Below, in pieces: positions 22,501-24,054 of a stretch of 32,807 nucleotides of DNA. The notes beneath the pieces are model-generated. The model did not search any database and was not told the origin of the DNA. It saw only the letters and a program-made list of their open reading frames with translations. How positions within the stretch are numbered: the first letter of the stretch is position 1; every line of letters starts with the position of its first letter. Made by a program: the position numbers and the translations under genes. The DNA is from Bacteroidota bacterium (GTDB taxonomy: Bacteria > Bacteroidota > Bacteroidia > Chitinophagales > Chitinophagaceae): positions 1 to 32,807 of the forward strand of contig JABDFN010000012.1 in NCBI GenBank assembly GCA_013286485.1. Direction: 5' to 3'.

Positions 22501-23355
22501 TTATACTTTATCTTTTGCTACTTGTCCATCTACAGTTTCCTGTTCGTTTTCTATATCGCCGGGTAATTTTACTTCATAGTCTTTTAATGTTTTGCTTACA
22601 TCTCCCTGTAATTGTATTATTCCGTTCTCCGCCATTTTTCTGAGCCTCCAACCGAGATAGGTATCGCCTGTGGGCACACTGTATTTATTCAGCGACTGGC
22701 TAATGATGCGTGATGCTTTGATGAACTGGTGCGAACAAAAACTTGCGAGTATATTATCGTAATGGTCCTCTGACCTAGAAGCTAATTTCTTGCCGCCTTC
22801 ATGCGTGCGGATACCGCCATTCTCTTCTACCAGTTTTGTCCATGTTTCACCGTCCATTTCTACTTCGGCTATAGTTACAGCGCGTGCCAGCCTTCTCGCC
22901 TTCACCAATTCTTTGGGTAATATCTCGCTAATGTTTTTAGGATAAAATACTTTGCCATTCTCGTCGAGAAAAGGCAGGCCTGCAATACTCAATACAAAAT
23001 ACCTGTCAATGGTATTATTAAAGAATCCGAGCAACCAATGATAAGCGCAGACATCGGCAGGCCAGGGCGCCATCCAGAACCAAACTTTTACGTCTGTATC
23101 TTCCATCAGCTTTTCTGAAAGCTGCTGCATGTGTTCTGCATCCTGAACATGAACGGGTTCTTTTTCATTGAGCATCATGCTGTTCCAGAAAGCAGAACGC
23201 ATGGCGCTGAAATCTGTGCCTTCGTCGTTGCGGAGCGGGCCCACATTTAATATATCTTTTAAAACTATTACTTCGCCCTGCATAGAGGGCTCCATAGATA
23301 TGGCTTCTTTTAATGAATCTGCAGCAGAATCGCCGACAACTAAATGATAGATCAT
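22501..23355 (-). CDS. DUF1835-like protein
   Basis: MIYHLVVGDSAADSLKEAISMEPSMQGEVIVLKDILNVGPL...VWFWMAPWPADVCAYHWLLGF: DUF1835-type pattern, with a C-terminal region resembling DUF3658. Confidence 0.8.
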   Translation of the reverse strand: MIYHLVVGDSAADSLKEAISMEPSMQGEVIVLKDILNVGPLRNDEGTDFSAMRSAFWNSMMLNEKEPVHVQDAEHMQQLSEKLMEDTDVKVWFWMAPWPADVCAYHWLLGFFNNTIDRYFVLSIAGLPFLDENGKVFYPKNISEILPKELVKARRLARAVTIAEVEMDGETWTKLVEENGGIRTHEGGKKLASRSEDHYDNILASFCSHQFIKASRIISQSLNKYSVPTGDTYLGWRLRKMAENGIIQLQGDVSKTLKDYEVKLPGDIENEQETVDGQVAKDKV

Positions 23356-23360
23356 GGGTG

Positions 23361-23368
23361 CAAAAATA
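23361..23368 (-). promoter_or_regulatory. Candidate Bacteroidota -7 box TATTTTTG, 5 nt from the DUF1835-like ATG
   Basis: Minus strand reads TATTTTTG-caccc-ATG; matches TAnnTTTG. Confidence 0.5.
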
Positions 23369-23400
23369 GGTTGATTGGTTGATAGGTTAATTGGTTGATT
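23369..23400. repeat. 8-bp tandem repeat, 4 units (ggttgatt)
   Basis: ggttgatt ggttgata ggttaatt ggttgatt. Confidence 0.9.
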
Positions 23401-23440
23401 AGTATAATGTGAGATATGTGAGGATTACAACCCGGTTCCT

Positions 23441-23537
23441 CTTGTTTCACTTTGCTTCACTTTTGTTTCACCTTTGCTTCACCTTTATTTCACCTTTGTT
23501 TCACCTTTGTTTCACCTTTGTTTCACCTTTGTTTCAC
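23441..23537. repeat. 11-bp tandem array, about 9 units, consensus ctttgtttcac (minus strand GTGAAACAAAG)
   Basis: Units end in ...cac at 23450, 23460, 23471, 23482, 23493, 23504, 23515, 23526 and 23537; the last four units are identical, the leftmost are diverged. Confidence 0.95.
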
Positions 23538-23652
23538 CTTTTCGTTCCGCATTTTTTAATAATATGGTTGTCTGTAAAGGGTTTGGCTGTCGCGACGTTC
23601 GGATGATTTCACCTTTTGGGAAATAATTTAGGGAAGAGGGGGTATTATTTCC

Positions 23653-23713
23653 CGCAGATACTCGCTGACCCCCGAATATCCGAACGTTCGGATCGGGGCG
23701 CTGAAAAACCGCA
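23653..23713. repeat. Palindromic dispersed-type intergenic repeat (copy 2) with 16-bp perfect palindrome
   Basis: atccgaacgttcggat at 23678-23693, flanked by ccccg (23670-23674) and cgggg (23694-23698); outer context matches the 22436-22490 element. Confidence 0.7.
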
Positions 23714-23904
23714 GACCGATAAAAAGTATTTGCCGGAGTTTTGAATTGGCGTTCGTTGCTACTGAGCTGCCTGGCATAGAATATAGATGCTTATAATGGA
23801 TTATTGCTTGTATTTCGTGAGGTTGCCTGCCCATTAATGTTCGGGACTTGCAATGACGGGAATGAATGTATTAAATATCATAATAATATAGGTTTTAGGT
23901 TTAA

Positions 23905-23936
23905 TCCGTCTGACCCTATAAAAGGGTACTGACGGA
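23905..23936. repeat. Imperfect inverted repeat / hairpin
   Basis: tccgtc-tg-accct-ataaa-agggt-act-gacgga: 6-bp and 5-bp stems with an internal loop. Confidence 0.5.
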
Positions 23937-24054
23937 TGCAAAGGTACGATTTGGGAGGAGGGGTAAACAAATATTTGTTTCGTTAATTAATTTTTATCAA
24001 TGGCATATATTTTTCCGTTTACATCCCGAAGTTTTGGGACGGCTTTTATTACTA

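Follow-up and report, generated by a model that had tools for sequence, protein, structure and literature searches.

An 11-bp tandem array in a member of the Chitinophagaceae forms the 3′ part of an intergenic element that is dispersed in many copies and has a putative promoter of its own

Results

The DNA analysed here (hereafter the window) is a stretch of 32,807 nucleotides that makes up an entire contig of a single partial metagenome-assembled genome (G000; 1.93 Mb, 60% complete). At positions 23442–23541, Tandem Repeats Finder (TRF) identified a repeat with an 11-bp period in 9.2 copies matching at 90%; its score, 165, is the highest of the window. Allowing one mismatch, GTGAAACAAAG occurred nine times in the window against 0.71 expected, eight of these matches being array units, and none of 100 shuffled windows reached nine. 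The array comprises nine to ten units of 10–11 bp in total, far beyond chance, and thus bears out the approximately nine units reported in an earlier note on this DNA. As also described there, the right end (23494–23537) consists of four perfect units, and the units become increasingly degenerate leftward; in minus-strand orientation the perfect ones stand at the 5′ side, adjoining the leader. The uniform 11-bp length claimed in the same note applies to the right-hand units, the leftmost ones being 10 bp long. The core GTGAA is almost invariant and the linker variable, and the only occurrences of GTGAAACAAAG found in the literature were primers and unrelated sequences. The features of the locus are as follows.

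22501–23355, minus strand: downstream gene with DUF1835 and DUF3658 domains (Pfam PF08874, E = 2.7e-15; PF12395, E = 6e-21)
23361–23368, minus strand: the DUF1835 gene's own candidate −7 box, TATTTTTG, located after the array (consensus match)
23442–23537, minus strand: array of GTGAAACAAAG units, 11 and then 10 bp long (TRF, pattern matches)
23543–23552, minus strand: lone GCGGAA-type unit ATGCGGAACG, where other copies begin their GCGGAAG array (alignment and profile)
23560–23584, minus strand: conserved box AAACCCTTTACAGACAACCATATTA (profile match; box common to four genera)
23606–23624, minus strand: putative hairpin remnant of the element, ATTTCCCAAAAGGTGAAAT, homologous to AAAAGCGGAAG of other copies (model alignment)
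23669–23698, no strand assigned: inserted REP-like palindrome CCCCGATCCGAACGTTCGGATATTCGGGGG (= CCCCGATCCGAACGTTCGGATATTCGGGG), dispersed in the genome (read in the sequence)
23834–23881, minus strand: possible short U-rich ORF MIFNTFIPVIASPEH, putatively coding (position as in other copies)
23905–23937, minus strand: inserted dispersed palindrome ATCCGTCAGTACCC..GGGTCAGACGGAT (= CCGTCAGTACC..GGTCAGACGG) (read in the sequence)
23939–23977, minus strand: candidate element promoter CAAATATTTGTTTACCCCTCCTCCCAAATCGTACCTTTG, in which the palindrome CAAATATTTG overlaps a −33 TTTG and is followed by a 23-nt spacer and the −7 box TACCTTTG (consensus match)

The array is situated 87–182 bp upstream of the minus-strand DUF1835/DUF3658 gene, in agreement with the earlier note, and its noncoding nature and its period of about one helical turn are likewise supported; a plus-strand ORF at 23409–23606 was rejected as a gene, this frame being open solely because the unit lacks a stop on that strand. 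An 8-bp tandem repeat, GGTTGATT, occupies 23366–23400 between the array and the gene, and similar runs such as CAACCWATCAACC are present in other intergenic regions.

The extent first assigned to the feature, 23441–23537, takes in only the 3′ end of a longer intergenic element, dispersed in the genome and running from about 23980 to 23440, of which the array is the 3′ module. Copies of this element, apparently undescribed so far, share a layout: a putative promoter of the Bacteroidota type comes first, and after its −7 box there is either a short U-rich ORF or boxA; a hairpin follows in most copies, then a box AAACCCTTTACC..CATATTA and finally the array of 10–11-nt units. A profile built from 20 other copies, the window being excluded, matched the window at 23623–23545 (E = 1.3e-4 in a 0.54-Mb sample), and the window array therefore begins where the GCGGAAG array should begin. 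The position of the possible U-rich ORF is held in other copies by a short hydrophobic ORF about 26–33 nt after the −7 box. The right arm of the hairpin remnant contains the GTGAAA core, as does the array, and the fold of the remnant in the window copy was not significant.

The window copy is longer than most because two dispersed palindromes are inserted in it. ATCCGTCAGTACCC..GGGTCAGACGGAT recurs in the C42 and C49 elements and beside boxA in L147 and L140, and the CCCCGATCCGAACGTTCGGATATTCGGGGG motif is also found in L165, L180 and the flanks of C25; both palindromes turn up repeatedly between the genes of this genome, in many cases within array elements or next to them. No terminator-like site was detected on the minus strand between 23200 and 24100 (terminators of Bacteroidota may differ from those searched for), nor any inverted repeat of at least 12 nt within 23350–24010. 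Neither the window nor 17 element loci matched an Rfam 15 family at or above its gathering score, the only hit being a tmRNA beside one boxA.

The statistics given here are based on pattern searches of the assembly and on the 0.54-Mb sample. A genome-wide search, as proposed in the earlier note, in which the larger element had been overlooked, retrieved 38 matches to GTGAAN{5,6}GTGAAN{5,6}GTGAA in the assembly (reversed control, 1), distributed over seven loci (C1, C12, C13, C25, C35, C46 and C49), all seven intergenic. No match to a stricter version of the pattern was obtained in the 149 other genomes searched in this family and order. C1 and C35 have a leader of about 80 bp in common (88% identity), and BLAST with the C1 leader located AAGTTCTTTGACATATTG upstream of three GTGAA arrays as well as at loci carrying a second type of array, GCGGAAGYAAA, also with an 11-bp period. 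The corresponding pattern, GCGGAAN{4,6}GCGGAA, gave 25 matches at approximately 20 loci of the assembly (control, 0). In the GCGGAAG copies, a pyrimidine-rich arm and a matching GCGGAAG arm are followed by the box (CAGTCAACCATATTA or CCATGGCTCATATTA), 10–14 nt and the array. The 20-copy profile, applied to the 0.54-Mb sample, also recovered C25 (E = 5.2e-5) and two extra copies, in C19 and C22, bringing the assembly to at least 29 elements (20 + 2 + 7), which sit in gaps between genes. Most copies have 2–4 GCGGAAGYAAA units, whereas the window and six others have more, of the GTGAAAnnAAr type; unit number ranges from 2 to 11 overall and from 6 to 11 in the GTGAAAnnAAr arrays. The genes downstream are functionally mixed in G000 (rpsL, ffh, cysS, metH, ddl, aconitase and also the murA operon), and most of them carry their own −7 box after the array. 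Terminal inverted repeats were not found, the inverted arms of the other copies lying inside the element and not at both ends; nor were target-site duplications, so that the ends of the element are not defined by them.

Promoters and boxA were assigned by consensus matches, the Bacteroidota promoter consensus, including its −7 box, being TTTG..TAnnTTTG (PMC6847099, PMC2483708). The palindromic promoter CAAATATTTG-N23-TAnnTTTR, with TAnnTTTR exactly 33 bp downstream of CAAATATTTG, was found at 12 sites of the assembly, every one of them followed by an element (reversed control, 0), and all six occurrences of the pair in the 0.54-Mb sample likewise preceded an element; in 149 relatives it was present at background level only. 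Most boxA copies have an alternative promoter, TTTGGAAA..TAnnTTG, and other copies have TTTGGAAAC..TAnnTTGC; no clear element promoter was seen in several GTGAA copies (C25, C46). BoxA (GAAGTTCTTTGACAT, up to one mismatch) was found seven times, six of them inside elements and the seventh about 90 nt upstream of a tmRNA (L144, 1503–1960) that Rfam detects and ARAGORN misses. A same-strand gene lies downstream of 37 of the 39 copies without boxA, compared to 5 of the 12 with boxA (Fisher p = 2e-4, an approximate value since ORF calling was simple and the copies in any one genome are partly interdependent). The boxA status of a copy and its orientation are thus associated.

Searches with a sequence model revealed multiple copies in four other genomes, G110, G034, G218 and G120, representing three further genera. 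Box and layout recur in these copies, the units being different: CGGAAGTTTG (10 nt) in G110, GCGGCCATAAA-like in G218, CGGAAAAA/CCGGAAATTT in G034 and GCGGAAATAA in G120, which has an extra copy (L218) with the palindromic promoter, boxA, a hairpin and GCGGCC units. When a second model was run against 399 genomes of the order, many copies were seen, among the matches listed, only in G000 and G110; G034, G218 and G120 were not among them and possibly lie outside the 399-genome sample. Matches elsewhere were single and weak. Copy numbers per genome from both searches are lower bounds, the best 12–13 candidates per genome having been considered. The distribution of the element across genera is patchy, and the element is older than the G000 genome.

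The location of the element is not conserved. Orthologues of the DUF1835 gene in G110, G218 and G120 (62–66% identity) have no element upstream, the intergenic DNA at these sites being too diverged for an empty-site alignment, and ffh was, among the loci compared, the only one with an element in both G000 (L183) and G110 (L290). One G110 gene (L292, on C3) is preceded by a tandem of two complete elements separated by 134 nt. In 84,980 genomes, GTGAA arrays formed 36 stretches, mostly in Bacteroidota, among which no common leader was apparent by eye; these were treated as independent of the element. Viral contigs yielded 11 scattered GTGAA stretches and nothing pointing further.

The zone upstream of the array was predicted to pair with its own array at −18.1 kcal/mol, compared to −15.7 kcal/mol (sd 0.45) for permuted arrays, and none of 5000 permutations was as strong; a change in the array unit is accompanied by a change in the upstream arm. 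Folds were more stable than those of shuffled sequences in GCGGAAG copies (mean z −1.87) and CGGAAGTTTG copies (mean z −1.68). No significant fold was found in GTGAA copies (mean z 0.02) or G218 copies (mean z 0.03), which also display little complementarity between arm and array, and pairing is for these reasons not universal. It belongs to part of the family and not to the window copy; a universal RNA hairpin switch is supported for the GCGGAAG and CGGAAGTTTG copies and unsupported for the subgroup of the window.

Discussion

The architecture common to all these copies, their number, the exclusive association of the palindromic promoter with elements, the occurrence in four genera and the non-conserved location lead us to consider it probable that the element is a compact, promoter-bearing transcription unit that ends in the array as a 3′ multivalent platform and has spread in the manner of a miniature inverted-repeat transposable element (MITE). 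Its product would be a multicopy small RNA or leader. RNA polymerase would start at the dedicated promoter and traverse boxA or the short U-rich ORF, generating an RNA of roughly 150–450 nt that would end in, or continue through, the hairpin, the AAACC..CATATTA box and the purine-rich 10–11-nt units. The run of units would most likely offer an RNA-binding protein a multivalent binding platform and, in the GCGGAAG and CGGAAGTTTG types, may also pair with the upstream pyrimidine-rich arm. Within a lineage, the element would spread among intergenic sites as MITEs do, while its unit sequence drifts, GCGGAAGYAAA having presumably given way to GTGAAAnnAAr in a subset including the window, where arrays grew to 6–11 units. 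The multimeric protein-binding platform suggested in the earlier note is possible, because unit length (10–11) is kept across four genera while the sequence shifts; constant spacing combined with changing sequence points to a platform read by its spacing or by a co-changing partner. More tentatively, we put forward as one possibility a wider class of boxA- or ORF-led multicopy RNAs in several genera of one Bacteroidota family, whose function would depend on units spaced by a helical turn and on a matching arm; spacing, layout and complementarity within the element would be kept and unit sequence would be free to differ between lineages and copies.

BoxA is otherwise typical of rRNA, tmRNA and CRISPR transcripts. 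The boxA-led copies resemble such stable RNAs in that GTTCTTTGACA comes soon after the promoter and before a long untranslated array, and the same motif precedes tmRNA in this genome. BoxA has been described ahead of CRISPR arrays (PMC7862264); the present units, unlike CRISPR repeats with their unique spacers, are arranged head to tail with no spacers, boxA is present in only about a fifth of copies, and CRISPR as well as Rfam families were rejected for want of a match. The FopS sRNAs of Bacteroides thetaiotaomicron are 14 intergenic or antisense paralogues with housekeeping-type promoters of their own, which bind the RRM protein RbpB and were recognised through their conserved 5′ seed and by RNA-seq (PMC11697453). 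The element is similarly a multicopy family of the Bacteroidota with a candidate promoter per copy (the palindromic one ahead of an element in 12 of 12 cases, TTTGGAAA..TAnnTTG in most boxA copies); neither a tandem array nor boxA is described for the FopS RNAs. If transcribed, the element would constitute a large class of noncoding RNA that Rfam lacks. Each genome would have dozens of copies, situated ahead of housekeeping genes (rpsL, ffh, cysS, metH, the murA operon), and the class would include boxA. The change of unit between genera at constant spacing and layout amounts to a natural experiment on what such an array requires.

A purely selfish MITE-like or REPIN-like repeat, devoid of host function and with arrays growing by slippage, is in our opinion rather unlikely. 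The multiple intergenic copies at non-orthologous sites, the patchiness among genera, the unit number of 2–11 and the tandem duplication of the whole element in G110 (L292) would all suit such a repeat. Terminal inverted repeats were not found, however; diverged copies in different genera have retained the box and the promoter, unlike neutral debris, and orientation depends on boxA. The nearest system of this kind is BrickBuilt, a minisatellite-in-MITE of Porphyromonas gingivalis with about 20 intergenic copies, each consisting of a leader and spacerless direct repeats, with variable unit number, imperfect units and promoter activity inside the element; its units are 23 nt long, it has a tail and IS5-family-like terminal inverted repeats, and it is restricted to P. 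gingivalis and P. gulae (PMC4596501). The element described here likewise has many intergenic copies in a Bacteroidota host, with a leader in common and, inside, direct repeats that vary in number. In contrast to BrickBuilt, the present units are 10–11 nt long, the leader contains a dedicated promoter, boxA and a conserved box, and the layout extends over four genera with differing units. REPINs, too, are short dispersed intergenic repeats maintained as populations, and consist of paired palindromes moved by a RAYT transposase (PMC8049555), neither of which was found for the present element. Were the element selfish, it would represent a MITE-like family bringing promoters into intergenic regions across a bacterial family.

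OmpR/PhoB-type regulators bind 11-bp direct repeats. The array could also be read at the DNA level by an oligomeric protein, for instance one of this type, that occupies one phased site on each turn of the helix and acts on the downstream promoter, a reading that we regard as unlikely. The window array does consist of 11-bp direct repeats with a conserved, almost invariant GTGAA core and variable linker, most genes preceded by an array are equipped with a separate −7 box, and a unit length of 10–11 that is constant in four genera while the sequence varies suits a DNA face as well as an RNA. However, a single regulator would not tolerate cores that differ within one genome (GCGGAAG, GTGAAA) and again between genera, nor do the downstream genes (rpsL and ffh through to aconitase) share the related function expected of its targets, and several copies face convergent genes. 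Since the array never occurs without an upstream module, be it promoter, boxA or box, and two cores coexist in one genome, we rank an RNA-level function somewhat above a DNA operator. The TAACTGA arrays of Beggiatoaceae, Cyanobacteria and some Bacteroidetes (PMC4679880) are comparable as species-specific short direct repeats in intergenic DNA upstream of unrelated genes; those are heptamers a few nucleotides before start codons, without a leader or promoter module.

That the array is a neutral minisatellite standing alone before the DUF1835 gene, as copies scattered at random and a lack of conservation at this locus would have indicated according to the earlier note, is highly improbable. The close similarity of the units at one end does point to recent slippage, and the array is indeed unconserved at this locus in relatives; the copies are nevertheless intergenic, non-random members of a structured family, the same units recur at seven places with shared leaders, and the array at 23442 begins where all other elements begin theirs, the shared leader and promoter excluding a lone microsatellite. 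Least credible is a phased A-tract bend upstream of a promoter. A-runs do recur every 11 bp, and the earlier note had raised such bending as a possibility; but the two A3 runs of each unit, 4 bp apart, cancel out, the predicted path ratio of the array (1.031; wedge model) falls below that of dinucleotide shuffles (1.062, sd 0.038), its curvature in the same model ranks at the 38th percentile of the window's 101-bp pieces, and the units of other genera, such as GCGGCCATAAA, lack A-tract phasing.

Other short repeats were encountered in the course of the searches. Rumen Prevotella MAGs harbor GTGAAGGATAA/GTGAAAGAAAA arrays as inverted pairs about 159 bp apart on many contigs, constituting another dispersed element (L098, L099, L105, L109 and L120 in Prevotella MAG RGIG1544; L086 in RGIG1062). 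Arrays of the 11-bp unit GTGAAGCGAAG are present on several contigs of Candidatus Bacteroides pullicola (L090, L097, L107, L114) and in Bacteroides sp. ET71 (L101); in places these arrays adjoin other repeats of 11 bp, among them ATAGGAGTAAC and GGAGGGATAAC.
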